Of a stretch of 52,887 bases of DNA, positions 22,211-43,109 are shown piece after piece. Every line of letters starts with the position of its first letter. Within the stretch, counting starts at the first letter, position 1. The position numbers and the translations under genes are program-made. The notes beneath the pieces were generated by a model, which saw only the letters and a list, made by a program, of their open reading frames with translations, was not told the origin of the DNA and ran no database searches. This DNA comes from Desulfobacterales bacterium. Lineage in GTDB: Bacteria; Desulfobacterota; Desulfobacteria; Desulfobacterales; UBA2156. The DNA lies in NCBI GenBank assembly GCA_011049715.1, contig DRHF01000115.1, positions 1 to 52,887 on the forward strand, given 5' to 3'.

Positions 22211-22216
22211 ACTGCA

Positions 22217-23116: not shown

Positions 23117-23134
23117 TCGTTAAGAGCAATAAAA

Positions 23135-24019
23135 ATGCGCCTTGGAAAAACAGCTAAAACAAAGACACTGGATCATCGTGTGGTTTTAGAACGGCAGATG
23201 ATAGGGCTTGCCCAAACGCTGGCCCTTGATCAGAACAAATGCACAGGTTGCCGGGATTGTCAGGTAATTTGTCCCCGCGAAGCCATTTCCTCCACCGATC
23301 CGGTAGTGGAGAAGGGGACACTCAAAAGGCCCATCAGAATGGATATAGATCCGAATTTGTGCCATTTTTGTGGCCAATGTGCCATTGTTTGCCCCACAAA
23401 GGCCTTTTTCTGGCGAGAAAACCAGGAAGAGATCCCGGGGTTAATCTCAAGCGGCATTTTTCCTGTGCTACAAGAAGAAATAAATATCCAAACAGACAAA
23501 TGTAAAGCGGATTGCGGTTCGGTTTGTGCGTCCAGTTGTCCGGTTGACGCGGTTACGGTGAAGATTTATCGTGACCCGGATACAGGTGAAGAAAAAATTG
23601 CTGCGGTTGAAGTGGATAAAATCGCGTGCTTTTACTGTCATAAGTGTGAACAGGCTTGTCCCTACGATGCAATCAGGGTTGATTGCTCACGATACGGAAT
23701 CGTAATTTTTTCACCACAATACTGTCCGCAAGGGTGTTATGCCTGTACCGATATCTGCCCCTCGGGTGCGTTGCACGTGGAAAATGAGCGGGTTAAACTG
23801 GACGAGTCCGCCTGTATCTATTGCCGGTCATGCCAAAACGTCTGCCCGGTGGACGAGGCCCTGGAGATTAAACGGGAGAAAATACGGCATGGTCCGGTTT
23901 GCTCCCAGCTATGGGTGGAGATTCAGGCAAAACTTGTTTCCGGGCCGGCCAAGGCAAGGCTTATAGAAGAAATTGCTTTGCGCAAAAGAGATAGAGCATT
24001 TCGAACCCGTATCGATTAA
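23135..24019 (+). CDS. Polyferredoxin with about six 4Fe-4S motifs
   Basis: 294 residues. Successive cysteine sets: CTGCRDCQVICP, CHFCGQCAIVCP, CKADCGSVCASSCP, CFYCHKCEQACP, CPQGCYACTDICP and CIYCRSCQNVCP. The pattern resembles MvhB- and FwdF-type polyferredoxins that conduct electrons over long distances between large enzyme modules. No membrane segment or export signal, so cytoplasmic. It follows hdrB by 18 bases and probably wires HdrABC to the AOR or to the flavin oxidoreductase. Confidence 0.85.
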   Translation: MRLGKTAKTKTLDHRVVLERQMIGLAQTLALDQNKCTGCRDCQVICPREAISSTDPVVEKGTLKRPIRMDIDPNLCHFCGQCAIVCPTKAFFWRENQEEIPGLISSGIFPVLQEEINIQTDKCKADCGSVCASSCPVDAVTVKIYRDPDTGEEKIAAVEVDKIACFYCHKCEQACPYDAIRVDCSRYGIVIFSPQYCPQGCYACTDICPSGALHVENERVKLDESACIYCRSCQNVCPVDEALEIKREKIRHGPVCSQLWVEIQAKLVSGPAKARLIEEIALRKRDRAFRTRID

Positions 24020-24033
24020 AAATAGGAGAATCC

Positions 24034-24675
24034 ATGATCAAAAAAAAAGTCATCACATGTGATCGGAATCGATGCACCGGCTGTCACTTCTGCGAAATGG
24101 TCTGTTCAGGCACCAAAGAGGGTCTATTTGATCCACGTGCGTCCAGGATTCGAGTGTTGGAAACAGAGGACGGGAAATCCAAATCTTTTACCTGTGTGCT
24201 TTGTGAGGGCGATCCGGCTTGTATCCTCTCCTGCCCGCGTCAGGCCCTGACACGGGACCCTGAAACCATGGCCATAGTGGTACAGGATGACAAATGTGAT
24301 GCATGTGGCAAGTGTTTGGAAGCCTGTTGTTACGGGGCTTTTTCCATGGGGCTGGAAGGAGATAAAGTTCTCGTTTGCGATCTTTGTCACGATCGGGAGG
24401 AACCGCCCTGCGTTAGGTTTTGTCCTTCAGGGGCGCTGAGCCTAAGCTCGATCATGCCGATTCCAAAAAAAGTAGCCAAAAATCAGATCAACATTAGCCT
24501 GGGTTGCAACAACTGCGGAGAATGTGTGCCCATATGCTCCTCGGGAATTTTGAAGATTAAAGATGGATGGCTTGTGCCGACAGACCCCAGCAGGTGCCAG
24601 GTTTGTGAACATTGCGCAACCAACTGCCCTATCCGAGCGATCAAAATTAACCGGCGTAGTAAAATCCCCTTTTGA
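24034..24675 (+). CDS. Four- to five-cluster ferredoxin subunit (HycB/BamC-like)
   Basis: 213 residues. The first 145 residues follow the electron-transfer subunit pattern of molybdo- and tungstoenzymes (CTGCHFCEMVCS, CVLCEGDPACILSCP, CDACGKCLEACCYGA, CDLCHDREEPPCVRFCPSGAL), as in BamC beside BamB. A further pair, CNNCGECVPICSSG and CQVCEHCATNCPI, is added at the C-terminus. It is the likely immediate partner of the AOR. Start ATG 24034 has an AATAGGAGAA site. Confidence 0.85.
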   Translation: MIKKKVITCDRNRCTGCHFCEMVCSGTKEGLFDPRASRIRVLETEDGKSKSFTCVLCEGDPACILSCPRQALTRDPETMAIVVQDDKCDACGKCLEACCYGAFSMGLEGDKVLVCDLCHDREEPPCVRFCPSGALSLSSIMPIPKKVAKNQINISLGCNNCGECVPICSSGILKIKDGWLVPTDPSRCQVCEHCATNCPIRAIKINRRSKIPF

Positions 24676-24700
24676 TGATGTGCTCAAAGGAGAGACAACC

Positions 24701-26266
24701 ATGAGAACATGGAAAACATGGGATGAGCTGTTAGCGGAACTGGAAGAAAAAGAAAAATTAGCCAGGCTTTCAGGCGGCCCTGTAAAGCAAAAAATGCAAA
24801 AAGAAAAAGGGAAACTTCTGTGCAGAGAGCGGATTGAGGCATTAGTGGATTCGGGCTCTTTCGTGGAAGTAAATATGCTGGCTGAAACCCAGACCTTTGA
24901 ATTTAATATGCAGGAGAAGAAGATAATGGGAGACGGGGTGGTCACCGGTTTTGCCACCCTTAACGGTCGCCGGGTTTGCATTTACTCCCAGGACGTCACT
25001 GTTTTTGGGGGGTCCGCGGGGCGGGATCACGGCGAACAGATTAACTATATCCTGACAATGGCCAGAAAAGTGCAAGCCCCTGTCATCGGTCTTTATGAGT
25101 CCGCGGGGGGACGTCTGCAGGACGGCATGCAAAACGAATCGGGATACGGACGCATGTTTTATGAGAACACCCAATGTTCAGGTGTCATCCCTCAAATTGC
25201 CGTGATTATGGGTGCATGCACAGGCGGGGCTGTCTATTCTCCAGCTATCATGGATTTCATCATCCAGGTGGAAAAAACCGCCCACATGTTCATCACCGGG
25301 CCGAAAGTTATCCAGGAGGTTACAGGTACAAAGGTCTCCTTCGAAGAATTGGGTGGGACAGGGGTCCACTCCAAGGAATCAGGGGTTGTGCACCTGGTTG
25401 CCAAAAATGACCAACACTGTCTGGAACTGATAAAAAACCTTATGTCCTATCTCCCTCAAAACAACAGGGAATCTCCGCCCGTGGTCCCCACCGGTGATGA
25501 TCCTTTCAGACCCAACGACGTTCTCACAGAAATTGTTCCAACAGAGCCCCAAAAGACCTATGATATCAAAAAGGTTATCGTTGAGATCCTTGACGCGTCC
25601 GAGTTTTTTGAGATTCAACCTTTTTATGCCCAGAACATCGTTATTGGCTTTGGCCGTATAGACGGCAGAACCGTGGGGATGGTGGCCAATCAGCCGCGCT
25701 TTTTAGCCGGTACCATTGATATCGATGTGGCGGATAAAGCCGCACGCTTCATCCGCTTTTGCGATTGCTTCAACATCCCCCTGATTGTGCTTGCAGATGT
25801 GCCCGGTTATCTGCCCGGCGTGGATCAGGAGAAAAAGGGAATCATCCGGCATGGGGCCAAAATGCTCTATGCGTTTTCAGAGGCCACTGTCCCTAAAATT
25901 ACTTGCGTGCTTCGCAAGCTCTATGGAGGGGCCATCCCGGCCATGTGCTGCCATGAGACCGGCGCAGATATCATGCTTGCTTGGCCCACCGCGGAGTTTG
26001 CCATGGTCGGAGCAGAAGCCGCGGTAAATATTCTCTATAAGCGAGAGATCGCCGAAGCCGAAGATCCAATCAAGGCCCGGCTTGAAAAGATTAAGGAATA
26101 TAAAGAGTCGATCCTAAATCCCTACTATAGCGCCTCCAAGCGGTATATAGACGCGGTCATCCATCCCAGGGACACCCGGGCCTGGCTTGTACACTCACTT
26201 CGACTTTTGGAGAGAAAAAAAACCGAGCAGATCATCTGGAAAAAGCATGGGAATATTCCCCTTTAA
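24701..26266 (+). CDS. Acyl-CoA carboxylase carboxyltransferase subunit (PccB/MmdA family)
   Basis: 521 residues from ATG 24701, placed by AAAGGAGAGA; an upstream start would overlap the ferredoxin gene. Both crotonase-fold halves are present with the oxyanion-hole glycines: YESAGGRLQDG and GACTGGAVYSPA in the N-half, and DVPGYLPG and KLYGGAIPAMC in the C-half. The family moves CO2 between carboxybiotin and an acyl-CoA (propionyl-, methylmalonyl-, glutaconyl-CoA). No biotin carboxylase, carrier protein or decarboxylase membrane subunit lies nearby, so partners must come from elsewhere. It may act as a decarboxylating step for a dicarboxyl-CoA intermediate made upstream. Confidence 0.9.
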   Translation: MRTWKTWDELLAELEEKEKLARLSGGPVKQKMQKEKGKLLCRERIEALVDSGSFVEVNMLAETQTFEFNMQEKKIMGDGVVTGFATLNGRRVCIYSQDVTVFGGSAGRDHGEQINYILTMARKVQAPVIGLYESAGGRLQDGMQNESGYGRMFYENTQCSGVIPQIAVIMGACTGGAVYSPAIMDFIIQVEKTAHMFITGPKVIQEVTGTKVSFEELGGTGVHSKESGVVHLVAKNDQHCLELIKNLMSYLPQNNRESPPVVPTGDDPFRPNDVLTEIVPTEPQKTYDIKKVIVEILDASEFFEIQPFYAQNIVIGFGRIDGRTVGMVANQPRFLAGTIDIDVADKAARFIRFCDCFNIPLIVLADVPGYLPGVDQEKKGIIRHGAKMLYAFSEATVPKITCVLRKLYGGAIPAMCCHETGADIMLAWPTAEFAMVGAEAAVNILYKREIAEAEDPIKARLEKIKEYKESILNPYYSASKRYIDAVIHPRDTRAWLVHSLRLLERKKTEQIIWKKHGNIPL

Positions 26267-26347
26267 GCGTTCTTGGGAATTAGTGAGCATCGCCGGCGCA
26301 AAATCTAAGCGGCTAATTCAAAATATTTATAGTGGAGGGAAGTATAA

Positions 26348-27535
26348 ATGGCTGGCCCATTAACAGGGATCAAAGTTTTAAGTTTCGGGCGTGTTCTGGC
26401 AGGGCCTTTTGCTGCCATGATGTTAGCTGACCTCGGTGCAGATGTCATTAAGATAGAGGATCGAAAAAAGGGGGATATGGCACGGAACAATGGACCCTTT
26501 ATCGAAGATATCAGCTCCTATTTTCTCAGTGTCAACCGCGGGAAAAAGAGTATGTCCATGGATCTCAGGCATGAAAAAGCCAAAGAGATCATCAAAAAAC
26601 TTATCCAAAAGATGGATATTCTAGTTGAGAACTTTCGACCCGGTATTATGAAAAAGATGGGACTGGAATATACAGCCGTCAAAAAGCTAAATCCTCATAT
26701 TATATATCTCTCAATTTCCGGGTTTGGCCAACATGGTCCCTATAGCCATAAGCCAGCCTTTGATATGGTAGCCCAGGGGATGGGCGGAACCGTAAGTATA
26801 ACCGGTGAGCCGAATCGTCCGCCGGTTCGTGTTGGATATTCCATAGGAGATATGGGTGCGGCCCTTTTTGCGGTCAGTGCAACACTGGCAGCACTTTACG
26901 AACGAGAACGAAGTGGAGAGGGTCAGCATATTGATGTGGCCATGTTGGATGGTCAGGTCGCACTATGCGAAAATGCATGTGCCCGATATTTCGCTACCGG
27001 AGAGGTTCCAGAACCTATTGGATCCAGGCATCCTATTATTACGCCTTTTCAGGTTTTTCCGACTCAAACCGATGAAATGGTCGTCATCGCTTTTGGTCAT
27101 GGGGAATGGGAGAAGTTATGCAGCGTGATTGGACGAGAGGATTTGATCGCAGATGAACGTTTTAAGACCGTGGCGGATCGAACCGGGAATCATGCCCTTT
27201 TGGAACCCATTCTATGCGAAGTATTCCAAACCAGGCCGAGAAATGAGTGGCTATCTATTTTTGAGAGAGCCGGTTTGATCAGCAGCCCCGTTAATAACAT
27301 CGAACAGGTGGTCAAGGATCCGCATGTACGGGCACGGGAAATGATTATAGAGGTGGAACATCCCCGATTGGGAAGGCTGAATTTGGTCGGAACACCCATG
27401 AAATTTTCCCGCACACCCTGCCAAATTAAAATGACCGCACCCGATTTAGGAGAGCACAATGATGAAATTCTCAAAAAAGAATTGAATCTTTCCATGGCCG
27501 ATATAGAGGAATTAAGGAAAGATAGGGTCATTTGA
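26348..27535 (+). CDS. Family III CoA transferase (CaiB/BaiF)
   Basis: 395 residues behind a GGAGGG site. Family start (LTGIKVLSFGRVLAGPFA), the CoA-binding region ENFRPGIMKKMGL, SISGFGQHGPY, and the catalytic aspartate D168 in GYSIGDMG, which forms the anhydride with the acid. The enzyme transfers CoA between two carboxylates. As last catabolic gene of the operon it most likely activates the pathway acid with CoA from succinyl- or acetyl-CoA. Confidence 0.9.
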   Translation: MAGPLTGIKVLSFGRVLAGPFAAMMLADLGADVIKIEDRKKGDMARNNGPFIEDISSYFLSVNRGKKSMSMDLRHEKAKEIIKKLIQKMDILVENFRPGIMKKMGLEYTAVKKLNPHIIYLSISGFGQHGPYSHKPAFDMVAQGMGGTVSITGEPNRPPVRVGYSIGDMGAALFAVSATLAALYERERSGEGQHIDVAMLDGQVALCENACARYFATGEVPEPIGSRHPIITPFQVFPTQTDEMVVIAFGHGEWEKLCSVIGREDLIADERFKTVADRTGNHALLEPILCEVFQTRPRNEWLSIFERAGLISSPVNNIEQVVKDPHVRAREMIIEVEHPRLGRLNLVGTPMKFSRTPCQIKMTAPDLGEHNDEILKKELNLSMADIEELRKDRVI

Positions 27536-28653: not shown

Positions 28654-29565
28654 ATGAATCTTAATCAGTTAAAAATCTTTTATCTTTCCTCAAAGCTTGG
28701 AAGCCTTAGTGCTGCCGGAAGGGAGCTCAACATTACTCAGCCGGCGGTAACTAAAGGAATTCAAAGACTCCAAAACTATTATGAGATTAAGCTGGTCAAT
28801 CGTTTTGGTAAAAAAATGGCACTGACCGATGCAGGAGAGGTCCTCTACGGCATTGCAGAAAAAATATTCGAGATGGAAAAACAGGCTGAAGAGAGTATCT
28901 GTGATTTTCAAAGACAAAGAAGAGGATATATTCAGATCCACGCAAGTGAAAGTTTTGGTGCGTATTATCTTCCGAACATCATCAATCCGTTTGTTAAGAT
29001 GAATCCCAATATTCACGTTTTGGCCAGCATTTTGCCGACCGAGCAGGTGATAAGCAATACCGCCAATTTGGAGAATGATATCGGATTTATCTCCTATCCG
29101 GTAGAAAATAAAAAGCTGATGATTCGGGAGGTTATTGAAGATCGCCTTGAAATCATCACCCCTCCCGGCCACCCGCTCGCACGGAATAGCAGTATTGAAC
29201 CTTGTGACCTGGAGGGCCGGTCGATCATTATGCATGAAAAAGGGTCAGCTACCGCAATGATGTTTGAAAAGTATATGCAAAAAAATGATCTTTCGATCCA
29301 TATTCCCCTGGAGTTCTCCAGCAATCGGGCGATAAAACTGGCTGTTGAAGATGGGATCGGTATTGGGATCACATCCCATAGAATTTCAAAGGATGAAATT
29401 GAGGCGGGGAAATTGAGCGCCATTCCTTTCTCAGACCGCTCAATGAAGCATAAATATTATCTCGTCCATCACAAGGACAAATACCTGTCAGAGACACTCC
29501 AGCGGCTGATTCAGACAGCCGATGAATGGTCAGCCGAATATACCGAAAGCCTTTCCGATCGTTAG
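28654..29565 (+). CDS. LysR-family transcriptional regulator
   Basis: 303 residues. N-terminal HTH (LNQLKIFYLSSKLGSLSAAGRELNITQPAVTKGIQRL is split over about residues 2-40) and a two-lobed effector domain from about 90 (IQIHASESFGAYYLPNII; IITPPGHPLA; GIGIGITSHR). Its stop overlaps that of the convergent Nudix gene by four bases. LysR proteins often control adjacent catabolic operons and some act on phosphonate genes; here it faces the end of the long AEP-type locus. The effector is unknown. Confidence 0.9.
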   Translation: MNLNQLKIFYLSSKLGSLSAAGRELNITQPAVTKGIQRLQNYYEIKLVNRFGKKMALTDAGEVLYGIAEKIFEMEKQAEESICDFQRQRRGYIQIHASESFGAYYLPNIINPFVKMNPNIHVLASILPTEQVISNTANLENDIGFISYPVENKKLMIREVIEDRLEIITPPGHPLARNSSIEPCDLEGRSIIMHEKGSATAMMFEKYMQKNDLSIHIPLEFSSNRAIKLAVEDGIGIGITSHRISKDEIEAGKLSAIPFSDRSMKHKYYLVHHKDKYLSETLQRLIQTADEWSAEYTESLSDR

Positions 29566-30181: not shown

Positions 30182-31276
30182 CTATGGTAAAACCGCAACT
30201 CGAATTGCCTCACCGGATCCTGCAATATGCAACCCCTTATTAATGTCGTGCAGGTTGACTCTGTGGGTAACGATCTCATTGAAAGGAAACTGATTCTGTG
30301 TTTCTTCCAGGAAATTGACACCCATTTGCAAGTGTTTGGCATCGTAATTATGAACACCTTTAATGGTCAATCGTCTCCAGACGATGTCGCACGCATCGTA
30401 TGAAAAATTTGCATTTGGAAAAGAATTGCCGATTTCAACAAATCGACCCCCGATTCGTAGACACTTCAAACCCAGAGGAATAAGGGAAGGAATTCCAGCG
30501 ACCTCCATTGTACAGTCGACACCAAATCCATCGGTCAGGCTTTGAATGGCTTTTACGATTTCGTGGTCCTTCATGTTTCGCGTATTCAAGATATCAGTGG
30601 CGCCAAAACGTTTGATAAATTCCAATCGGTGTTCAAGGATGTCTGTTACAATAATCCGGCGGCTTCCATAATATTTCGCCAGGGCCGCTGCATAAAATCC
30701 GAGTGCACCGGCGCCTTGAATCAAAACATTTTCAAATGGCTCTATGCCGATGGCCTCCCATCCGGCGACAACCGTTGCCAGAGCGCAGTTTGCCGGTGCG
30801 ACCTCCTCGTCGGTCAGCGTATCCGGGACCTTGATGACGCAGGTTCCAGGGGTGATATAGCAATACTCTGCAAATCCGCCGATAAAATGGGGCGGTTCAG
30901 CGCAGCTGTCATGGCCGTATTTCTTGAGGTGGCGGCATTTCATCATTAACCCTTTTTCCCGACAAAAGTAGCATTTTCCACAGTTGTCCATGATCGTCCA
31001 GGTGATTCTATCCCCAATGGCCAAGGGCCGATCTCCGGAATCATGTGTGACACCGTCTCCAAGTTCAACAATTGTACCGACAATTTCATGGCCTAAAATG
31101 ATGGGAACCGGAGCAGATCTTCGGCCAGTCCAGGAATGAACATCCGAACCGCAAATCGTACAACAGGTGATTTTAACCAAAATACATTCTTTTTCCACCC
31201 GAGGCAGAGGGTATGTTTCGATTTTCAGATCGGTGTTCGCTGATTTCATGACAGCGGCTTTGGCAGTTTGGTTCAT
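30182..31276 (-). CDS. Zinc alcohol dehydrogenase, phosphonate-associated HpnZ type
   Basis: 364 residues from ATG 31276 (GGGAGAAAA site); an earlier start at 31354 would overlap the preceding gene. Medium-chain dehydrogenase pattern: catalytic zinc C and H in CTICGSDVHSW and LGHEIVG, structural zinc cysteines in CGKCYFCREKG...KC, Rossmann glycines in IQGAGALGFYAA. The size and neighbours resemble the dehydrogenases proposed to act in phosphonate catabolism (HpnZ). It could reduce acetaldehyde or phosphonoacetaldehyde or oxidise a hydroxyalkyl-phosphonate. Confidence 0.8.
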   Translation of the reverse strand: MNQTAKAAVMKSANTDLKIETYPLPRVEKECILVKITCCTICGSDVHSWTGRRSAPVPIILGHEIVGTIVELGDGVTHDSGDRPLAIGDRITWTIMDNCGKCYFCREKGLMMKCRHLKKYGHDSCAEPPHFIGGFAEYCYITPGTCVIKVPDTLTDEEVAPANCALATVVAGWEAIGIEPFENVLIQGAGALGFYAAALAKYYGSRRIIVTDILEHRLEFIKRFGATDILNTRNMKDHEIVKAIQSLTDGFGVDCTMEVAGIPSLIPLGLKCLRIGGRFVEIGNSFPNANFSYDACDIVWRRLTIKGVHNYDAKHLQMGVNFLEETQNQFPFNEIVTHRVNLHDINKGLHIAGSGEAIRVAVLP

Positions 31277-31334
31277 TTTTTCTCCCAGCCTCGGATGGAT
31301 TTTCGAGAAATCAAAGGGGTGACATTTGAGATGT

Positions 31335-32063
31335 TCAGATAAATTCGGATTCAATCAGATCCGGGAGTTCTTTTACACTGGGAATCACATGGGTATGCCA
31401 GTATTTTCCCCAAGCTGTCACCGGTCGGGGGCCGCTGAGAACACCCACTACCCCGTGACAACCGGCGTTTCGGCCTTCGAGCATGTCCGCCGGCGTATCT
31501 CCAACTTTTATGACTTCATGGACGCTCTGAACATCGAGCTGAGCCATGGCATAAAAAATCATAAATGGTGCGGGTCTTCCACGATCCATAGGGCTGTGCT
31601 GCACATCCACAGAGATATCCACCAATCCATCTCTGACCCACCCCAGCCCTTCCATAATTGCCTCCGTGATCTGTCGATGGAACCCTGTATCTGTCGCCAC
31701 TTTTATCCCGTGTTCATGGCACCATCGGAATGTGTCCGATGCACCGGGGACCTCTTTGACCTCGGATCTGTAGTGCGCGATCATGATTTCCTCATATCGA
31801 TTAAAAATTTTCTTTGCCGATTCATATGTGCTCGGATCCTGGGTTTTCTCGAAATCTTTGAAATCGATTTCTTTTCCCTGCGCTTTGGCGATGAGGTATT
31901 GATAGAGATGAATCTTATTTGTCCCCATATGGAGTAATATTTCTTCCGGCGTGGTTTTAAGATTAAATTCCATTGCTGCTTTATACAAGCAATCCCGCAC
32001 ACCGGTATCATCGTAAACAGTCGTTCCTGAAAGATCGAACATGACCATACTGATTTTGCCCAT
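31335..32063 (-). CDS. PhnX-like HAD hydrolase (C-P cleaving candidate)
   Basis: 242 residues behind AGGAGG. HAD motif I is D10-L-S12 (MFDLSGTT): the second acidic residue of phosphatases is absent, as in phosphonoacetaldehyde hydrolase (DxA). K50 in HMGTNKIHL lies where PhnX has its Schiff-base lysine. Other loops: ATDTGF and KVGDTPADMLEGRNAG. It is likely to split phosphonoacetaldehyde, formed by PhnW, into acetaldehyde and phosphate, although it belongs to the PhnX-like group and not to classical PhnX. It follows the PhnE gene. Confidence 0.78.
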   Translation of the reverse strand: MGKISMVMFDLSGTTVYDDTGVRDCLYKAAMEFNLKTTPEEILLHMGTNKIHLYQYLIAKAQGKEIDFKDFEKTQDPSTYESAKKIFNRYEEIMIAHYRSEVKEVPGASDTFRWCHEHGIKVATDTGFHRQITEAIMEGLGWVRDGLVDISVDVQHSPMDRGRPAPFMIFYAMAQLDVQSVHEVIKVGDTPADMLEGRNAGCHGVVGVLSGPRPVTAWGKYWHTHVIPSVKELPDLIESEFI

Positions 32064-32113: not shown

Positions 32114-32950
32114 TTAGGCTTTACCGACTTTATTTCTGGCCCAGGCGGAAATTACCTCTGAAATGACAACGAGAAAAACAATTGAAAGCAGTATCGCCGC
32201 CACGCGGTGGCTCTGAATCTGTTGTATCGTTCTTCTTAAGTACCAGCCCATCCCACCGGCGCCGAAGAACCCGACCACGGTGGCCGCTCGAAATGCGGTA
32301 TCCCATGTGTATATCGAAATACCTGTCCACGCCACCCTGACTTGTGGCAAAACCGAATATATAAATACTTGTATATGGTTTGCTCCGGTTGCCTGAAGGG
32401 CTTCCACCTGACCCCGGTTTATCGATTCGATTTCCTCGGAAAAAAGTTTACCGGTGAATCCGAGGCTAAACAGGGAGAGCGCCATGACACCGGGAAGCAT
32501 GCCAAACCCCAAAATCGTCACGAAAAGAATGGTCCAAATCATTTCGTGAACCGCCCGGCAAAGCATGAGTATAAACCGGGAGATGGGATAAAGAAACCGC
32601 TTGTTGGGGGTCATGTTAAATGAAGCAAACCAGGAAAGAGGGATCGCAAGGATGATGCCGAAAAGCGTGCCGAGGTATGCCATCTTAACGGTGTCATAAA
32701 CATAGCCAAGGTATTCACTGTCGAGAATGTAGGGAATGTCCGGGGGGTAGTATCGATTTCCAAAAAGATTTCCCAACCGGGGAAACATGGTCAGAAGCCG
32801 GTTGAGGTGAATATTCAAATAATCAATGGAAATAACGATGAAGACCAATATGATCAGTGTGATGCCATATTTGATCAAAGACTGAGGATATTTAAATCTG
32901 CTCCAGGTTTTTTCGGGACCGGCCGCCTTATCGATGGTGCTTGAGGTCAT
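32114..32950 (-). CDS. phnE: Phosphonate-type ABC transporter permease (second PhnE)
   Basis: 278 residues with about six membrane helices. The EAA-like loop that contacts the ATPase is seen in INRGQVEALQATGANHIQVFIYSVLPQ, with the ending MGWYLRRTIQQIQSHRV common in PhnE. Paralogue of the gene at 32991. Two PhnE genes per transporter are common and form a heterodimeric channel. Confidence 0.9.
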   Translation of the reverse strand: MTSSTIDKAAGPEKTWSRFKYPQSLIKYGITLIILVFIVISIDYLNIHLNRLLTMFPRLGNLFGNRYYPPDIPYILDSEYLGYVYDTVKMAYLGTLFGIILAIPLSWFASFNMTPNKRFLYPISRFILMLCRAVHEMIWTILFVTILGFGMLPGVMALSLFSLGFTGKLFSEEIESINRGQVEALQATGANHIQVFIYSVLPQVRVAWTGISIYTWDTAFRAATVVGFFGAGGMGWYLRRTIQQIQSHRVAAILLSIVFLVVISEVISAWARNKVGKA

Positions 32951-32990: not shown

Positions 32991-33809
32991 TTAAATAATT
33001 GCTTTGCGGCTAAAATATGATCCCACTTCTCCGATGGCGATGAGAAAGAGAATCGCAATGATGACGGTCGTCACACCGCCATAATTATACATCACCAACT
33101 GTCTGTGAAATGTTAATCCCAAACCACCGGCACCAACAAGGCCCATGATTGTCGCTCGTCGAATGTTAATATCCCATTGAAAAATGGTGTTTCCGATAAA
33201 AACCGGTAAGATCTGGGGGATCACCGCATACAAGATGATTTGAAACCCGGAAGCACCGGTTGCCCGGATCGCTTCCATTTGACCCGGGTTGATATCCTCA
33301 ATGGCTTCAGCGGTCAGTTTTGCTATGAAACCGATCGATCGCATACCCACGGCAATAATTCCGGGAAATGCACCAAGGCCGACAGCAGCCACGAATATCA
33401 ACCCCCAAACAATTTCGTGAACAGAACGCGACAGGGTCATAATGGCACGTCCGATAGGGTATGTGATCGGTTTGTAGGGTGTAATATTATGGGCGGCAAA
33501 CCAGGAAACAGGAATCGACAGGATGAGGGCAAGGATGGTGCCAAGGCTTGCAATCATAAATGTTTCGATGGTCGGTCGGATAAGATGTTTGAACAAAGAA
33601 ATATCAGGGGGAAAAAATCGCGCCAGTGCTTTTGCTATCGACCCAAATGTTCCAATCCGGTCCCAATCGGTATCCATGATAATCGTAGTTTGGATGCTCG
33701 CGATGACCAAAAGGATTAACAAAAAATAGAAAGAATACCGGAAAGTCTTGTATTTTTTCCTGTTGAAAAGGATTTTTTTGAGGTTTTGTTCAATTGCGGG
33801 TTGCGTCAT
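32991..33809 (-). CDS. phnE: Phosphonate-type ABC transporter permease (first PhnE)
   Basis: 272 residues with about six membrane helices. The loop INPGQMEAIRATGASGFQIILYAVIPQ and the C-terminal VGAGGLGLTFHRQL are PhnE marks. It overlaps nothing and sits 14 bases after phnC. With the second permease and PhnC it makes the inner-membrane importer for a phosphonate or similar oxyanion. Confidence 0.92.
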   Translation of the reverse strand: MTQPAIEQNLKKILFNRKKYKTFRYSFYFLLILLVIASIQTTIIMDTDWDRIGTFGSIAKALARFFPPDISLFKHLIRPTIETFMIASLGTILALILSIPVSWFAAHNITPYKPITYPIGRAIMTLSRSVHEIVWGLIFVAAVGLGAFPGIIAVGMRSIGFIAKLTAEAIEDINPGQMEAIRATGASGFQIILYAVIPQILPVFIGNTIFQWDINIRRATIMGLVGAGGLGLTFHRQLVMYNYGGVTTVIIAILFLIAIGEVGSYFSRKAII

Positions 33810-33823: not shown

Positions 33824-34576
33824 TTACAGTATTTCCATGGCATAGATTTCTTCGAGAGTGCTCTTGTCCACCTCATTTGTCGGCCCCTCAAATTTTTTGA
33901 TGCCGTCTTGAAGACCGATGACCTTGTTTGAAAAATCCAAAGCAAGTTGAACATCATGGATGTTACACAAAACCGGTACGCCGACCTCCTTTGACATGTT
34001 TTTGATCATCCCCATGACTTCACGAGAAATCTTGGGATCGAGGCTGGAGGTAGGTTCGTCCACGAGCAAAAGCTGAGGCTGTTGAATGAGCGCCCTGGCA
34101 ATTCCCACTCGCTGTCGTTGACCGCCGCTGAGCGCGTCAGCTCTTCTGTCTACAAAATCGCCCAATCCGACCCTCTCCAATAACTCTAAAGCCTTCTGGA
34201 TGTCTGATCTTGGAAAGAGTCGAAAAATGCTTCTCACATTACCGATGTAACCCAATCGACCGGAGAGGACATTGTCCATGACAGACATTCTTTCCACCAG
34301 GTTGAACTCCTGAAAAATCATCCCCATGTCCCGACGGGCTTTTCTCAGTTCTCGTTTTCCTGCTTTTGTAATATTTTTTTTATTTAGAATAACGGTGCCG
34401 CTATCCGGCTCAACCAGACGGTTAATACATCGTATCAAGGTCGATTTTCCAGCACCACTCGGCCCGATGATGGCAAAAAAATCATCCTGCTCCACATTAA
34501 AACTGATCCCTTTTAAAATCTCCGGTCCGGACCGACTGTAACGTATTCGAAGATCCCTGACTTCAAGTATTGCCAT
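33824..34576 (-). CDS. phnC: Phosphonate-type ABC transporter ATPase PhnC
   Basis: 250 residues. Walker A GPSGAGKST, Q-loop FQEFNLVERM, signature LSGGQRQRVGIARAL, Walker B LLLVDEPTSSLD and switch histidine CNIHD are all intact. The QEFNLV segment and overall length are those of PhnC. Drives uptake by the two adjacent PhnE permeases. Confidence 0.93.
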   Translation of the reverse strand: MAILEVRDLRIRYSRSGPEILKGISFNVEQDDFFAIIGPSGAGKSTLIRCINRLVEPDSGTVILNKKNITKAGKRELRKARRDMGMIFQEFNLVERMSVMDNVLSGRLGYIGNVRSIFRLFPRSDIQKALELLERVGLGDFVDRRADALSGGQRQRVGIARALIQQPQLLLVDEPTSSLDPKISREVMGMIKNMSKEVGVPVLCNIHDVQLALDFSNKVIGLQDGIKKFEGPTNEVDKSTLEEIYAMEIL

Positions 34577-34895: not shown

Positions 34896-35804
34896 TTATG
34901 ACTTCTTTTTTCTTGCTTCTTTGGCCTTCTTCAAAATTCGAATAACATCGTAATCCGAATCGGTCATTTTCACCATTTTGTTCGATTTCACATTATCCAA
35001 CCATTTTTTGGCTTCAGGCACTTTATGCAACGTTAAAAATGTCTCTTCTATCGTTGCCCTTAAATCAGGGCACAGGGACATCCGGTAGGCAAAGGGATCT
35101 TGCGGAATGGTTGCAGACCACCATAGATAGTTAAAATCTTCTTTTTTAACCATGCCTCGATCGATAACATTATCGAATCGATGGGTAGCGACAAAGGCAG
35201 CGTCTGCTTTTCCATCATAGACCGCCATTGTGGAAAGGTCGTGTCCACCGGAGTAAACGACTTTTTCGAAATACGATTCCAGAGGAGCGTCTTTGAGTAT
35301 GTCTTTCGAAAAAACAACCCGTGGGAACAGGTTGCCAGAGGTGCTTCCCGGATCCGTCAGGGCGAGTACTTTACCCTTAATGGAATCTATGGAAGTTAAC
35401 CCACTGCCCTTTTTGGTGATTAGAACTGCTTTATAACCCGGACCTTCTTCAACGATATGACCGGGTCTTTTTGCATAGGTAGTAAAAACCATGATGTCAG
35501 GATCTTTTTCATGGGCAATCACATATGAGTACGGTCCTAAAACCGCCACATCGACCCATTTGTTAATCATGGCTTCAACAACGGTGGCATAGGAGGTCGG
35601 CATATAAAATTCTACCTTTTTCCCTGTTTTTTTTGCAAGGTAGTCGATGACCGGTTTGTAAATGGTCAACTCCTGAATAGTCTCTTCGGTAGGAATAATG
35701 GAAAAGGTCAGTGCGTCAGGATTCTCGCATTCAGCCGCGAGAGCCGGCGGTCCTAAAAAAACAATCAGAAAAAAACTCAAACATACGATGCTTATCTTTT
35801 TCAT
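34896..35804 (-). CDS. phnD: Phosphonate-binding periplasmic protein PhnD
   Basis: 302 residues behind a GGAGGG site. A signal peptide (1-23, cut after ALAA) precedes a PhnD/PtxB-type binding fold: FSIIPTEETIQEL, VDVAVLGPYSYVIA, VLALTDPGSTSGNLFP, YDGKADAAFVATH. The DPGSTSG loop binds the phosphonate or phosphate group in relatives. The protein delivers the ligand to PhnE. PhnD homologues also bind phosphite or other oxyanions, so AEP is inferred from phnW. Confidence 0.9.
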   Translation of the reverse strand: MKKISIVCLSFFLIVFLGPPALAAECENPDALTFSIIPTEETIQELTIYKPVIDYLAKKTGKKVEFYMPTSYATVVEAMINKWVDVAVLGPYSYVIAHEKDPDIMVFTTYAKRPGHIVEEGPGYKAVLITKKGSGLTSIDSIKGKVLALTDPGSTSGNLFPRVVFSKDILKDAPLESYFEKVVYSGGHDLSTMAVYDGKADAAFVATHRFDNVIDRGMVKKEDFNYLWWSATIPQDPFAYRMSLCPDLRATIEETFLTLHKVPEAKKWLDNVKSNKMVKMTDSDYDVIRILKKAKEARKKKS

Positions 35805-36939: not shown

Positions 36940-37065
36940 TTATCTTTCGACTAAAAAATCCAGGATGCCACCCCGGTGATTTGACTCGGGTCCTTGACCA
37001 TAAGCGTATATGGGAATCCTGCGTTTCAGCCTGGCTTCGATGCCAGGTTCTGCAGTGTCTTTCAT
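36940..37065 (-). CDS. 41-residue ORF coupled to the HAD gene
   Basis: ATG at 37063-37065 overlaps the TGA stop of the upstream HAD gene (ATGA), the classical arrangement for translational coupling. The product (starting MKDTAEPGIEARLKRRIPIYAYG, split here as residues 1-23 by position, and ending in GGILDFLVER) is soluble and charged. I do not recognise it. It could be a small partner protein or a remnant of a larger domain; no repeat sequence is involved. Confidence 0.45.
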   Translation of the reverse strand: MKDTAEPGIEARLKRRIPIYAYGQGPESNHRGGILDFLVER

Positions 37066-37772
37066 TTTTTACCGAGAAGCGTTTCGAGATCGAGCAGTTG
37101 ATCTAACCGATGAACGATCGGAATAGACGTTTTTATATCCGGCCAGGAACGCTTTATGCCTTCATGTTTCAGCCATATGGGGGTCAACCCGGCATCCCTG
37201 GCCCCACAGATATCGATTCGCCAATCATCGCCGACATATACCGACTCGGCCGGTAAAACGTGCAGATTTTTCAGACAGAGGTGAAATGGCTCCGGATGGG
37301 GTTTCGGGGGTACTCCCCCCTCACCCGCTACGATGACAAGCTCAAAATACGGCTCCAGTTCCGGGAACATGTTCATGCGATGGGTCCCGTACCCCTGCTG
37401 ACCCTGGGTGTTGGTGATAAGGGCGACCCTGTATATGGCGGACAGGGATTTTAGAACAGGCTCGGCTTTTGGGAAAAGAGTCGTATGGGCTCTTACCATC
37501 ATCCAATATTCCTTCTCCCATGTTTCGAGCAGGCATAGGTCCGGCTCTTGGCTATAATAGAGATAAACCTCTTTCCAGAGCGTCATCCTGGAGAAAATCG
37601 ATTGTTCATGTAGTTCTTTTCTGAATCGGCGGTAATTTTTTAAGAAATCTTCCTGCAGTGTCAGGCTGAGATTCGAAAATATCTTGGCTTGTGCATCTTT
37701 TTCTGCTTTGCGAAATCCATTTGCAGAATCGACCAATGTCTGGCCAAAATCAAAGATAACCGCTTTTATCAT
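37062..37772 (-). CDS. HAD-superfamily hydrolase, subfamily IA
   Basis: 236 residues. Motif I is D8-F-G10 (VIFDFGQTLVDS), motif II LITNT, motif III lysine in KPHPEPFHLCL and motif IV VYVGDDWRIDICGARDAG. As in the PhnX-like neighbour, the second Asp of DxD is replaced, here by Gly, which weakens the case for a plain phosphatase. The cap domain is helical. It lies within the AEP-type locus; it may act on a phosphonate or phosphate ester or protect against side products. Confidence 0.8.
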   Translation of the reverse strand: MIKAVIFDFGQTLVDSANGFRKAEKDAQAKIFSNLSLTLQEDFLKNYRRFRKELHEQSIFSRMTLWKEVYLYYSQEPDLCLLETWEKEYWMMVRAHTTLFPKAEPVLKSLSAIYRVALITNTQGQQGYGTHRMNMFPELEPYFELVIVAGEGGVPPKPHPEPFHLCLKNLHVLPAESVYVGDDWRIDICGARDAGLTPIWLKHEGIKRSWPDIKTSIPIVHRLDQLLDLETLLGKK

Positions 37773-37856: not shown

Positions 37857-39245
37857 CTAAACCCGACCCCACTTCTCCAGATAGTCGCTGCACAGCTCCT
37901 CTTCAGAAGGGATGTACTCTTCTTTTGGAATCGACAGCAGGGTATAATTGAGGAAGTGACTCCAGTTAATATTCTCACTGACGATGTTCCCGGCCCAAGA
38001 ACCGCAGCCCAGCGTATCTGTGGTCGGCAGCCCTGTGGTCCAACCACCGCTGTTGGCATGCGCATGGGGCATGTTGCAGACCACCCGTCCCACATTGGCC
38101 CTTAGGGCGAGCTTTACCCGCTGCTCATCGTTCTCGGAATGGATTGATACGGAGTGACCTTCGCCGGAAAACGCAAGGATATTTTCCAGACGATCAAGCA
38201 TTTCATCGAAATCAGTCCATTTCCAGACGGTGAGAACCGGTGATATTTTTTCTCCGGAGAAACGATCTTCCGGACCGACTTTTTCTCCAATCACCATCAG
38301 GAATTTTGTGCTTTTAGGAACAGACAGCCCTGCATTTTCAGCAATAAAGGTCGCAGGTCGGGCCACGATACCCCTGTTGAGATGTTCCCCGTCGGGCCAC
38401 ATATACTGTCTCAGTTTTTCACGTTCCTCGGTGGTGCATAAATATCCGCCTTCTGATTTTAGGGCGTCGAGCATGTCGTTGTAAATGTTTTCATACAGTG
38501 CAACCGCATTTTCAGATGAGCAGGAGGCTGAGTTGTTGGCGATTTTTGAAAGTTTGATTTTATGGGCCGCGGAGGGAATGTCGGCGGTTTCGTCCACAAT
38601 GGATACCACATTTCCGGCTCCCACGGTTTGGGCCGGTTTGCCGGCTTCATAAACAACTTTGACCAGGGCAGCACCCCCGGTGGCCACGGCAAAGTCACAG
38701 TTGGCCATCAATTCGGAGGTTTTGGCATGGCTCGTCTGTTTGATGCACTGTATCAGGTCCACTGGTGCTCCGATTTTTTCGAGTGCTTTGCGTATATGTA
38801 CAACCGTTTCGTTTGACGTTTTCGGGGTTCGCGGATGGGGCGAAACGATCTGGGCGTTTCTAGTTTTTAACGTGGAGAGGCCCAGACAGCAGATGGTGGA
38901 TTCCGGGTTTGTACATGGAACGACATTGGCAATTACACCGATCGGTTTGGCAAATTTTCGGATCCCCAATGCCTTGTTCTCTTCGATTAGGCCACAGGTC
39001 TTGAGGTTTTTTTGGTCCCACAGTGTGCCCAAAGTCTTGTTCTTGATTTTATTCACTTTGTCTTCAGCCACACCAATACCGGATTCATCCACCGCCATAT
39101 GGCCGAGCTTATGACGAACGTCTTCTTTCAAAAGCTCCCAGGCCACTGCCTGAACCATCTCGTCGACCTTTTCCTGGGGCCAATATTCGACCGTGTGAAA
39201 CGCTTCTCTGGCTCTTTGGCACATCTCTTGAATGTTATCTTCCAT
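37857..39245 (-). CDS. Acylating (CoA-dependent) aldehyde dehydrogenase, EutE/SauS-like
   Basis: 462 residues behind a GGGAGA site. The catalytic cysteine is C242 in IANNSASCSSENAV, preceded by the NAD site GGAALVKVVYEAGKPAQTVGAGN (about 190-212), and VPCTNPEST near 110. The length and lack of the Glu general base of ordinary aldehyde dehydrogenases mark the CoA-acylating class (acetaldehyde, propionaldehyde, sulfoacetaldehyde SauS). In this locus it should turn acetaldehyde from the PhnX-like enzyme into acetyl-CoA; direct formation of phosphonoacetyl-CoA or sulfoacetyl-CoA is the alternative. Confidence 0.85.
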   Translation of the reverse strand: MEDNIQEMCQRAREAFHTVEYWPQEKVDEMVQAVAWELLKEDVRHKLGHMAVDESGIGVAEDKVNKIKNKTLGTLWDQKNLKTCGLIEENKALGIRKFAKPIGVIANVVPCTNPESTICCLGLSTLKTRNAQIVSPHPRTPKTSNETVVHIRKALEKIGAPVDLIQCIKQTSHAKTSELMANCDFAVATGGAALVKVVYEAGKPAQTVGAGNVVSIVDETADIPSAAHKIKLSKIANNSASCSSENAVALYENIYNDMLDALKSEGGYLCTTEEREKLRQYMWPDGEHLNRGIVARPATFIAENAGLSVPKSTKFLMVIGEKVGPEDRFSGEKISPVLTVWKWTDFDEMLDRLENILAFSGEGHSVSIHSENDEQRVKLALRANVGRVVCNMPHAHANSGGWTTGLPTTDTLGCGSWAGNIVSENINWSHFLNYTLLSIPKEEYIPSEEELCSDYLEKWGRV

Positions 39246-39334: not shown

Positions 39335-40480
39335 TTAGCGGTTCAGCGGCAGCGTAAATCCCATTTTTTTAAATGAGTCCTTGGCAACCACAAAAAAGTC
39401 TTCCACGTCTTTGTAGGTTATCTGCCCCAGATTACAAAGCCGGAATGTCTTTACCCCGAACATTTTCCCCGGATAGATGGTAAACCCCCTTTCGTAACAA
39501 TAGTCATGGAATTTAGTGAAATCGAATTGTTCACTCTCTGGCGCTTTGACTGTAACCACCAGATGTCCCTGAATTTCTTTATCGATGACCGATCCAAGAC
39601 CCATTTCGTTTAACCCCTTATGGATGGCTTCCCAGCATTGGGTCAGACGCTCCCAACGGGCGTGTTCCCCTTCCTCCCAGTATTCCTTGATGGCCTGCTG
39701 TAAAGCATATACTGTCTGAACCGGCGGTGTAAAATGCATCTCTCCGACCCGTTTAAAAAAATCATACTGCATGAACAGGTTGCAATAATAGGAACGCTTA
39801 GGATAACTGGCTGATTTTTCAATCTCATCGATCCTGCCGACGGTCCAGGAAGCGCCGACCATCGCAGCCAGCCCTTTCTGGGCAGAGGACATGAGAAAAT
39901 CAATATTCTCTTCTTCTATCCGAATCGGTCTCAACCCATAGGTTGAAATGGTGTCGACCACGAAAAGACACCCCTCTTGATGGGCAATCGCTCCGATTTC
40001 TTTAATCGGGTTCAAGACACCGGTTCCGGTTTCATGATGAACCGTGGCGACGACCGCAATCTCCTTGTCTTTCTCCAGGGTTTCTCTGACCACATCAAGG
40101 TCCGGGAGACCGGTTTCCGGAAATTTCAGGTTCACGCAGGGGATATGATAATGGTTTGCAATTTCAACCATTCGGGCGGAGTAGGCGCCGTTATTCACCA
40201 CGCAGATCTTTTTTTTGTCAGGGACAAGTGAGTTGACACAGACATCCTGGACAATCGTTCCAGACCCGGTAAAAATAACCGCCGTGTACTTCTCCGGATC
40301 ACCATGGACGATCCTGACCAGTTCTTTCCGGACCTGGTCTATGATTTCAACGAACTCCGGTTCTCTTGGGCAGATATCCGGAACCACTTGAGCATATTTT
40401 ACCGTGTCGGATGTGGTTGCCGGCCCGGGATTTAACAAAATGTTTCTTTTAACAGGTTTTACCACTTCCATATTTTCCAT
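39335..40480 (-). CDS. phnW: 2-Aminoethylphosphonate-pyruvate transaminase PhnW
   Basis: 381 residues from ATG 40480, one base after the stop of the upstream gene; a TTG five codons earlier would overlap it. A class V PLP aminotransferase: LLNPGPATTS at the N-terminus, TGSGT, D176 in FVVDTISTYG and the PLP lysine K202 in SSAQKGLAA. The start LLNPGPATT and the SSxxKxLAxxPG-like loop are those of PhnW. It converts AEP and pyruvate into phosphonoacetaldehyde and alanine. A role with taurine or another 2-aminoethyl compound is less likely but not excluded. Confidence 0.85.
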   Translation of the reverse strand: MENMEVVKPVKRNILLNPGPATTSDTVKYAQVVPDICPREPEFVEIIDQVRKELVRIVHGDPEKYTAVIFTGSGTIVQDVCVNSLVPDKKKICVVNNGAYSARMVEIANHYHIPCVNLKFPETGLPDLDVVRETLEKDKEIAVVATVHHETGTGVLNPIKEIGAIAHQEGCLFVVDTISTYGLRPIRIEEENIDFLMSSAQKGLAAMVGASWTVGRIDEIEKSASYPKRSYYCNLFMQYDFFKRVGEMHFTPPVQTVYALQQAIKEYWEEGEHARWERLTQCWEAIHKGLNEMGLGSVIDKEIQGHLVVTVKAPESEQFDFTKFHDYCYERGFTIYPGKMFGVKTFRLCNLGQITYKDVEDFFVVAKDSFKKMGFTLPLNR

Positions 40481-40481: not shown

Positions 40482-41537
40482 CTATAGTTTTCCAACTTTT
40501 TTTATGCCTGATTTTTTGCTGGGATCTTCGATCTCTTCAACGATGCTGAACCCGCTGCCGCTAATGTTTTTCATCTCCTCAAAGCGATTGGTCCATTCCT
40601 GCGGTGTCTTGCAGATTACCGATTTGGCGTATTTGGTACGGTCTTTCAAGGGGGGTACCGGACGATCTTCGGGGCCGTCGTAATCTTCCTTTGGGGTTAG
40701 CTCCTGTCCGAGTCGTGTATATTCACCCCTTTCGACCTCTTCAATGTAATGGGCCCCTGCAGCAAATGCACGGGTCACCGCCAGGATGGCCCAGGTCGCC
40801 TCAGGGGTAAAGCCCAGATCCATCATGGTTGCCCCGGTGGCGCCGAGCATATCGAGATCCACGGATCTGTCACAGATCTTTTGGGCCGCTTTGACGATTT
40901 CCTCGGTAAAGGCGGTGTATTTGCCGGCAACCCCCAGCTTTTTCGCACGCGTAAACATGCGTTTGGCGGCAACGTCTTTGATCATCAGCCCGGAGACGCC
41001 CAGGGCTTCATCATTTAGATTTTCCTTTACCAGTAAGGCTGCGCCCGTTTCCAACGAGCATTCTCCATTGTCTATTCTGTTTAGATATTTTTCCAACCGG
41101 TTGCCAAAAGCAGAATATGCGCCATAGGCGTGCCCAAAGGCAAGAATTGAAGTCCCGCATGCCTGGGTCAGAAACGTCTTTGATTTGGCAACAATTCTGG
41201 ACAAAACCGCCGGCATGGACAGACCGTCTTCAAGGGCCATGATCATGACGTAATTGAGCATTTTATCTTCTTCAATGGTCGGTATTCTAGCCTGATAATC
41301 CACAAAGAGCATGTCAACTACACCGTACCCTTCCTCCATAAGCTCGGTGGTATCATATCCCCTGGAAACAATGCGATGAACATTTTTATATGCGACTTCG
41401 CTGACCCACTGAAACGGGGCTCTTTTCGTGTCCCTTGGAACGGTTCCGTATTCCCGGTCATAGTAATCAAACGGATTTTTGGGGCTATCCAGGTTTCCTA
41501 TTTTTCTTTTTCTTTTGATCTCGTTTAGATCACCCAT
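40482..41537 (-). CDS. Citrate-synthase-fold protein A (citryl-CoA-lyase-like), catalytic residues altered
   Basis: 351 residues; ATG 41537 overlaps the end of the upstream paralogue by 13 bases behind GGAGAA. The fold is that of small citrate synthase/citryl-CoA lyase proteins (RGYDTTELMEEGYGVVDMLF; MLGATGATMMDLGFTPEATWAILAVTRAFAAGAHYIEE). At the three canonical catalytic positions it differs: FGHAYGAY replaces GGxHGxA, the GxGHxxH loop reads GVSGLMIKD, and the NVDG aspartate is Leu. It can hardly be an ordinary citrate synthase alone. It may form a heteromer with protein B, or do other Claisen-type chemistry in the AEP-type locus. Confidence 0.75.
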   Translation of the reverse strand: MGDLNEIKRKRKIGNLDSPKNPFDYYDREYGTVPRDTKRAPFQWVSEVAYKNVHRIVSRGYDTTELMEEGYGVVDMLFVDYQARIPTIEEDKMLNYVMIMALEDGLSMPAVLSRIVAKSKTFLTQACGTSILAFGHAYGAYSAFGNRLEKYLNRIDNGECSLETGAALLVKENLNDEALGVSGLMIKDVAAKRMFTRAKKLGVAGKYTAFTEEIVKAAQKICDRSVDLDMLGATGATMMDLGFTPEATWAILAVTRAFAAGAHYIEEVERGEYTRLGQELTPKEDYDGPEDRPVPPLKDRTKYAKSVICKTPQEWTNRFEEMKNISGSGFSIVEEIEDPSKKSGIKKVGKL

Positions 41538-42421
41538 TTTTTGTATTCTCCATCTTTTTTCTGCTTCTTGGCATATGCTTGCCGTTCCGTTTGTTTCGGA
41601 ACGATTCTGTCTTCAGGGCCGATATATTTTATCATGGACAGATCGATCATCTGTACCATCGGTTCATTTCTCGACGCTCCCCAGGCCCGCCCTTTTTTCA
41701 TGTTGTATAAGGCATGGGCTGCGCAGCTGAAACCTCGCGAGACACTTCCAATACACCAGCCGGCGTTCGGTGAAAACCCGATCTCCATCAACGCCGTATT
41801 CCCGGAGCCGACCACATTTACACCCACATATGATCTGCCTTCAGCTTCTCGCCGGGCATGAAAATATTTTTCTAAAGCCCGTTGAAACTCTAAATAGACG
41901 CCCTCAAGTTCCAGTTCCTCCTGTTTGAGGTGAATCGGCTCAGCACGGGGGTCGCTATTGATATGTTGAGGCTGGCCCATCCCCATAACCGGTTTTCCGG
42001 CATCAAAATATTCATCGACCAGGATCTTGGCCATCTCATCGACCGATTTACCCTCTTTCTTTGCCCGTTCGAGGTATTTATTGAGCATATATCCGTGGGC
42101 AGCACCCGGCCCATGAACCCCCCCGAACGTCATCACCGCCGAGGCGACTGCACAGGGCAGGTTGGGCCTGCCGGCGATAACACCGATGGCGCCGACCGCA
42201 GAGGGTGACATGGAGTGCTCCATGAAAACGCCCATTTCGTATTTAAGCAGTTTTTCTTCTTTTTCTGTGGGGATTCTGTTCTGGAATAGGACAAACAACG
42301 TATCGTAAAAAGAATACCCCTCCTCCGCCAGATCGCTCAAATTATATCCACGCAGGACGGTTTTTTCTTCTGTCTTATATGAAATGGTCGTTTTTCTGCG
42401 TAACAACGGTTTTCTGTCCAT
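41525..42421 (-). CDS. Citrate-synthase-fold protein B (citryl-CoA-lyase-like)
   Basis: 298 residues, first gene of the operon, behind GGAGGAAA. Typical opening (VLRGYNLSDLAEEGYSFYDTLF), first catalytic His kept in FGGVHGPGAAHG, CoA-binding SDPRAEPIHL, and a C-terminus like that of protein A. The second catalytic region reads GMGQPQH, with Gln in place of the first His, and the aspartate position is Val in VNVVG. So one of three residues remains. Relatives split citryl-CoA into acetyl-CoA and oxaloacetate or make citrate. Pairing with protein A in tandem suggests two unequal subunits of one enzyme. Confidence 0.78.
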   Translation of the reverse strand: MDRKPLLRRKTTISYKTEEKTVLRGYNLSDLAEEGYSFYDTLFVLFQNRIPTEKEEKLLKYEMGVFMEHSMSPSAVGAIGVIAGRPNLPCAVASAVMTFGGVHGPGAAHGYMLNKYLERAKKEGKSVDEMAKILVDEYFDAGKPVMGMGQPQHINSDPRAEPIHLKQEELELEGVYLEFQRALEKYFHARREAEGRSYVGVNVVGSGNTALMEIGFSPNAGWCIGSVSRGFSCAAHALYNMKKGRAWGASRNEPMVQMIDLSMIKYIGPEDRIVPKQTERQAYAKKQKKDGEYKKWVI

Positions 42422-42749: not shown

Positions 42750-43109
42750 TTACCCTCCCAGGCCGATCGATATAACACCGATTGTAATCACTACCGCACC
42801 GATCAATTTCTGACTTCCATGTTTTTCACCGAGCCGGCTAACACCATAAAAAGAAGAAAAAACGATACTGACTTCCCGCACGGCAACCACATAACTCACC
42901 TGTGAAAGTTGCATGGTAAAAAGAATCATCATGTAAGTCAAAAGGACCAAAAAGCCGAGGGAGAGGATAGACCATTTGTTGATGCTCCATTCTTCCGCTA
43001 CCTGCCCGCGCGGTTTTGTGAATACGAACATTCTTTTCTTGGTTAGGTAATTCCAGCTCGCATGTATAGCAGCAGCCAGGAGCACAATCCCCAATGCAAG
43101 ACCACTCAT
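42750..43109 (-). pseudogene. EamA-family transporter with internal deletion
   Basis: 119 residues from ATG 43109. The first 25 residues match the N-terminus of EamA (DMT) transporters (LALGIVLLAAAIHASWNYLTKK), and from about residue 45 the sequence matches their last helices (QVSYVVAVREVSIVFSSFYGV; LIGAVVITIGVISIGLG). Normal members have ten helices in about 290 residues. The junction (MFVFTKPRGQVAEEW) is unlike either half, so roughly 170 codons seem to be lost. A natural four-helix protein is possible but the end-to-end match favours a remnant. Confidence 0.6.

Follow-up and report, generated by a model that had tools for sequence, protein, structure and literature searches.

We analysed a window of 52,887 nucleotides on contig DRHF01000115.1 of a Desulfobacterales bacterium, in which a run of minus-strand genes begins with two citrate-synthase-fold paralogues. 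Protein B (298 aa, 41525..42421) keeps a histidine of the His274 type, His103, and protein A (351 aa, 40482..41537) is without the catalytic triad; both are intact open reading frames, in agreement with the first-pass annotation. The two genes overlap by 13 nt, and a start codon is found at exactly this overlap position in 71 of 76 related loci. The stop codon of A ends at 40482 and the ATG of phnW lies at 40480, confirming for the window that PhnW starts one base past A. This one-nucleotide gap is limited to the window and a relative of the same genus; other loci have a longer gap or no PhnW.

Next on the same strand come a PhnW-type aminotransferase (39335..40480; TIGR03301, 421 bits, above the cut-off of 360.8), a SauS-like acylating aldehyde dehydrogenase (37857..39245) that matches the SauS, AdhE and EutE families best, a HAD hydrolase (37062..37772) with the motif DFGQT, in which the usual acid/base Asp is absent, and a lipoprotein-like gene. 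These are followed by a PhnD-type phosphonate-binding protein (34896..35804), a PhnC-type transporter ATPase (33824..34576; assigned by reading the sequence and not by a family-library scan), a PhnE-type permease (32991..33809) and a second PhnE permease with which it clusters (32114..32950; above the TIGR01097 cut-off). Next are a PhnX-like HAD protein (31335..32063), which scores 169 bits against the TIGR03351 cut-off of 219 and keeps the MGxxK motif of PhnX, and an HpnZ-like phosphonate-associated alcohol dehydrogenase (30182..31354; TIGR03366, 312 bits against a cut-off of 328). A LysR regulator related to phn_lysR (TIGR03339, score below cut-off) is encoded on the plus strand at 28654..29565.

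Two further features of the window were recorded. Upstream of B, a short EamA (phn_DUF6-like) reading frame of 119 aa (42750-43109, minus strand) looks like a shortened remnant when compared with the full 290-aa EamA found in many relatives. On the plus strand, a single stretch at 19796-27535 holds HdrA/HdrB-like, methylmalonyl-CoA decarboxylase alpha-like and CaiB-type CoA-transferase genes.

Fold and catalytic residues of the pair

A and B are adjacent citryl-CoA-lyase-like paralogues and kin of citrate synthase. B matches the Pfam Citrate_synt family (PF00285) at 1.3e-15; A is sub-threshold for this family (18.2 against 27 bits) and reaches 5.6e-24 with NF004869, a citryl-CoA lyase model. 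Both proteins fall far short of the NCBIfam citryl-CoA lyase cut-off of 212 bits (B 111.7, A 84.9), and they are about 32% identical to each other over 270 residues. The top PDB match of B by sequence is the citryl-CoA lyase 6hxp (9.4e-18). The same structure was the top Foldseek match of the AlphaFold2 models of A and B, each predicted singly at moderate confidence (mean pLDDT 72 for B and 69 for A), with query-normalised TM scores of 0.63 for B and 0.51 for A. A duplicated housekeeping citrate synthase was ruled out as the source of the pair, as two ordinary citrate synthases are present elsewhere in the genome.

An alignment that took in true citrate synthases, including the two from the window's own genome, places H103, Q150 and V203 of B in the His274, His320 and Asp375 columns; the corresponding residues of A are Y138, V and L. 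This agrees with the original reading that B keeps one of the three canonical residues and A none, and when the alignment was examined for catalytic residues at shifted positions, neither protein showed a displaced triad. Thirteen residues are invariant in 81 B sequences (H103, H109, Q150, Q152, H153, D157, R159, H164, N202, N208, R229, H236 and R272), and B therefore resembles an active enzyme whose site has been remodelled, likely the catalytic subunit. On the basis of the alignment and general knowledge, we equate R159 and R229 with the pig citrate synthase residues Arg329 and Arg401. Across the 75 sequences of A, residue 138 is Y in 69, F in 5 and H in 1, while D229, R256, H263, E266 and E267 are constant, one gapped row excepted; A is likely a partner subunit.

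Citrate synthase uses Asp375 to deprotonate acetyl-CoA and His274 to stabilise the resulting enolate. All 81 B sequences carry V, M or C at the position equivalent to Asp375, where A mostly has L, and a condensing reaction by the known mechanism is therefore unlikely. Of the two activities first proposed for the pair, condensing or splitting a CoA ester, condensation is thus disfavoured, and cleavage fits the kept and lost residues better. The same residues bear on the idea that A-B is a Claisen-type synthase or lyase for a phosphono-analogue of citrate, acting in the manner of citryl-CoA lyase, for example on acetyl-CoA and phosphonopyruvate to give 2-phosphonomethylmalate, or in reverse. The fold and the best structural match, citryl-CoA lyase, speak for such an enzyme, and synthesis of 2-phosphonomethylmalate is known chemistry in another enzyme family (PMC12871164). 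Against it stand the loss of both the Asp375 and the His320 equivalents in B and A, and the fact that neither an aconitase nor a product lyase was recognised in the operons. We regard this reading as quite unlikely.

Distribution and genomic partners

Scanning GTDB genomes with a profile, we obtained 96 loci and retained 80, whose B proteins are 68-95% identical to that of the window. The hosts, nearly all uncultured, are Desulfobacterota, Planctomycetota, Chloroflexota, Verrucomicrobiota, Spirochaetota, Latescibacterota, SAR324 and Pseudomonadota bins, these phylum names being those of the bins, in which single contigs may be misplaced. A adjoins B in 76 of the 80 loci, and the remaining 4 stop at a contig edge. 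Among named genomes the closest B is from Desulfobacteraceae UBA2156. Since the B tree groups mostly by phylum over the 80 loci, restriction of the pair to the window's genus and an assembly artefact were both ruled out. A viral origin was likewise rejected, as viral contigs held no relative of the pair, and a plasmid search returned only citryl-CoA-lyase-like matches of about 23-30% identity. The original observation is thus confirmed, and is more general than the single window suggested.

To describe the surroundings of the pair we used the 37 well-flanked loci, whose contigs continue for 4 kb or more upstream and 4.5 kb or more downstream. A SauS-like gene is present in 33 of these, the HAD in 23, a PhnW-type gene in 20, and PbfA-like and PhnA-like genes in 11 and 6, respectively; neighbours were labelled by BLAST to representatives, so the PbfA and PhnA counts may include relatives with other functions. 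The representatives themselves scored above curated cut-offs for PhnW (TIGR02326), PbfA (NF049939), PhnA (TIGR02335) and PhnS2. One or more of PhnW, PbfA, PhnA and the phn transporter genes occur in 25 of the 37 loci, and none of these is in view in the other 12. PhnCDE and phosphate permease/PhoU genes are also found among the neighbours. Neighbourhood analysis therefore upholds the association with phosphonate genes, though not the role of PhnW as the defining partner: the constant partner of the pair is the SauS-like dehydrogenase. Similarly, the statement that the pair opens a phosphonate operon holds for the window and its gene order and does not extend to other phyla, where PhnW is variable.

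The link to the dehydrogenase is also apparent across whole genomes. Of 390 genomes of the class, 25 have a B orthologue, 23 a SauS-like orthologue and 22 both (Fisher p about 1e-31, a value that overstates the association as the genomes are related and not independent); the 3 genomes with B and no SauS-like match are draft assemblies. In G227 and G358 the pair is unlinked from the dehydrogenase and both are still present in the genome. Because pair and dehydrogenase co-occur almost 1:1, genomic context gives good support to the proposal that the pair acts on a CoA ester produced by the acylating dehydrogenase, its condensing version excepted; the Claisen-type reading leaves this link unexplained.

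The dehydrogenase scores 499.9 bits against the SauS model NF047625, short of the equivalog cut-off of 600, and its catalytic-type cysteine (C242 in SCSSENA) is conserved in 56 sequences. With best matches to the acylating families SauS, AdhE and EutE, it does not qualify as PhnY, the non-acylating phosphonoacetaldehyde dehydrogenase, and by analogy with SauS it probably makes phosphonoacetyl-CoA. A sulfonate role for the pair, on sulfoacetyl-CoA, is disfavoured by the neighbours that could be recognised, which are phosphonate genes. In a complete Chloroflexota chromosome (L142:10965-11582) the SauS-like match spans residues 5-210 only, and the C-terminal half with the catalytic-type cysteine is missing.

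Several loci have additional neighbours. Phosphate permease (PiT/PHO4) and/or PhoU-like genes lie near the pair in nine loci (L098, L115, L146, L148, L150, L151, L154, L159 and L167); this fits a release of phosphate, as though the cell had phosphate to spare. Proteins of the MtmB family (monomethylamine methyltransferase), with no stop in frame, are encoded beside PhnW, PbfA and B-A at L116:5947-8738, and also in L110 and L142, and may demethylate N-methylated aminoethylphosphonate. In Spirochaete loci (L161 and L163-L166) a full citrate synthase, of the PRK14032 type in L163, is divergent near B-A, and no PhnW, PbfA or phn transporter was recognised there. Finally, at L160:969-12189, on a contig binned as an archaeon, B-A lies beside a PEP-mutase-type gene, PhnW-like and CobD-like genes, two B12 radical SAM genes (one closest to a P-methyltransferase family), NTP transferases and an HD protein, with no SauS-like gene in view. 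These surroundings look like a phosphonate/phosphinate biosynthesis cluster, in which the pair may have a different or reverse role; a condensation of the Claisen type would fit beside the PEP-mutase-type and B12 radical SAM genes.

Candidate enzymes for C-P bond cleavage

Known C-P bond-cleaving enzymes are scarce in the 25 pair-bearing genomes. None encodes PhnX or PhnA above cut-off, the nearest to PhnA being G376 (402 bits against 407), and PhnJ of C-P lyase was found in 2, with no match in the window's genome. In the complete Chloroflexota chromosome G390, neither PhnX nor PhnA was found in the 2.0 of 3.27 Mb scanned, which is weak evidence of absence because its SauS-like gene is truncated. 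PhnA does exceed its curated cut-off in loci of other lineages, such as L128, and 7 of the 80 loci have PhnA-like genes close to the core. These cases would suit a pair that acts as a thioesterase or CoA-transferring enzyme, freeing phosphonoacetate for PhnA-type hydrolysis, a reading made very unlikely by the lack of above-threshold PhnA in all 25 genomes, G376 alone coming close.

The PhnX-like HAD of the window has an MGxxK motif that aligns to annotated PhnX, and may provide a second C-P cleavage route in this organism. If it cleaved phosphonoacetaldehyde to acetaldehyde, the dehydrogenase could convert the latter to acetyl-CoA, and A-B would be an add-on of other function. The kept motif and the position of the gene inside the phn cluster are consistent with this scheme. 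Such a protein (at E 1e-20, below the PhnX cut-off) is found, however, in only 3 of the 25 pair-bearing genomes, the window's included, and A-B is far more constant; of the alternatives considered, we give this one the slimmest chance.

The second HAD protein, linked to the dehydrogenase, is more widespread. Its orthologue occurs in 21 of the 25 pair-bearing genomes of the order and lies near SauS even where A-B is located elsewhere (G227 and G358). As in PhnX, the phosphatase acid/base Asp is absent from its motif in 33 of 36 sequences; of the cap arginines, two are invariant and a third is kept in 35 of 36. No conserved cap lysine was found, and a role as a Schiff-base PhnX was therefore ruled out. 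We surveyed 14 further genomes, chosen because the HAD had not been seen beside the pair, together with two HAD-bearing positive controls, at a threshold of 1e-15. Both controls were detected; the HAD was encoded elsewhere in 4 of the 14 and was not found in 10, these being selected genomes of unstated completeness. The 10 include Chloroflexota and four Verrucomicrobiota, and a fifth Verrucomicrobiota locus (L129) does have the HAD. The protein is thus a frequent and not a universal partner of the pair; it is probably not universal at the level of whole genomes either, though the selected set gives no frequency of absence.

These observations are relevant to the main rival, in which the linked HAD is the C-P-cleaving enzyme, acting on phosphonoacetyl-CoA or on an A-B product by PhnX-like chemistry with the thioester in place of a Schiff base as electron sink, and A-B performs a preparatory or later CoA step. 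Its linkage and motif conservation speak for this reading, while its apparent absence from the 10 surveyed genomes and the unconserved cap lysine count against it, as does the fact that A-B would be left without a needed step. On balance we consider it unlikely. Given a HAD that is probably not universal and the scarcity of PhnX, PhnA and PhnJ, A-B is the most constant candidate beside the dehydrogenase.

Our preferred reading, to which we give a little under an even chance, is that the SauS-like enzyme makes phosphonoacetyl-CoA, from which A-B releases acetyl-CoA and phosphate by cleaving the C-P bond. The operon would then constitute an oxygen-independent route for 2-aminoethylphosphonate. 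Phosphonoacetaldehyde would be supplied by PhnW, or by PbfA in other lineages, as suggested by the curated family matches, and the dehydrogenase would oxidise it to phosphonoacetyl-CoA in a reaction like that of SauS on the isosteric sulfoacetaldehyde. A putative B-A heteromer would split the C-P bond of this thioester to give phosphate and the enolate of acetyl-CoA, which would be protonated to acetyl-CoA. In such a site, His103 of B would polarise the thioester carbonyl and hold the enolate, like His274 in citrate synthase, the phosphonate would be bound by Arg159 and Arg229 (the Arg329/Arg401 positions), and A would complete the active site as a non-catalytic partner. The base Asp375 would be dispensable because C-P cleavage breaks no C-H bond and enolate stabilisation would suffice; the combination of a kept His103 and a lost Asp fits cleavage of phosphonoacetyl-CoA better than it fits condensation.

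Several observations argue for this proposal, namely the position of A beside B in 76 of 80 loci, the co-occurrence of B with the SauS-like enzyme, the phosphonate-gene neighbours, the scarcity of known C-P cleavers, the thirteen invariant residues of B and the failure to find the HAD in 10 of the 14 selected genomes. Others argue against it: the 12 of 37 well-flanked loci with no PhnW, PbfA, PhnA or phn transporter in view, the context of L160, the window's own PhnX-like HAD and the HAD in 21 of 25 genomes. We also know of no citrate-synthase-fold enzyme that hydrolyses a C-P bond. Activation by an adjacent carbonyl or carboxyl is the principle shared by the hydrolytic phosphonate routes (PMC10574752), and the thioester carbonyl would be able to serve as the activating group; that known C-P hydrolases are metal-dependent (PMC10574752) counts against the proposal.

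Relationship to known systems

Sulfate reducers lacked PhnX in a genome survey (PMC4046663), and a review lists three substrate-specific C-P hydrolases only, PhnX, PhnA and PalA (PMC10574752). Our literature searches found nothing relevant on a citrate-synthase-like protein in aminoethylphosphonate breakdown, and no earlier description of the gene set was found in the open-access literature, which misses most subscription papers; phosphonoacetyl-CoA is mentioned in the open-access literature searched in a biosynthetic context only. The gene set points to an undescribed C-P bond-breaking route in anaerobes of many phyla, perhaps with a new enzyme type. We hold more tentatively still the stronger form of this idea, in which A-B would represent a fourth evolutionary origin of C-P hydrolases, as a heteromer of citrate-synthase fold that is key to an oxygen-independent phosphonate route in many anaerobic phyla. 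The conserved gene set is a candidate answer to how anaerobes without PhnX, PhnA or PalA could use aminoethylphosphonate and, if the proposal is true, would bring both an acyl-CoA intermediate and a new fold into the chemistry of C-P bonds in sediments.

With the PhnW-PhnX and PhnW-PhnY-PhnA routes (and PbfA), the predicted pathway shares a start at PhnW or PbfA and phosphonoacetaldehyde as intermediate. It differs in that an acylating, CoA-type dehydrogenase replaces PhnY, that a citrate-synthase-fold pair occurs where PhnX and PhnA are missing from most pair-bearing genomes, and that carbon would leave as acetyl-CoA instead of acetaldehyde or acetate. The dehydrogenase resembles SauS over its full length and in its SCSSENA motif with the catalytic-type cysteine, and departs from it in falling below the equivalog cut-off and in sitting among phosphonate genes.

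The 2-phosphonomethylmalate synthases (PsfB/FrbC type) have a fold that differs from that of citrate synthase; they resemble the proposed system in handling a phosphono-analogue in acetyl-CoA chemistry, and belong to a homocitrate-synthase-like family (PMC12871164). The citryl-CoA lyase/citrate synthase superfamily (PF00285, 6hxp) shares with the pair its fold, about 23% identity, and the His274-type histidine and Arg329/Arg401-type arginines of B. In contrast to these enzymes, B has Gln for His320 and V, M or C for Asp375, A retains none of the three residues, all curated lyase cut-offs are missed, and the two proteins form a tandem pair.
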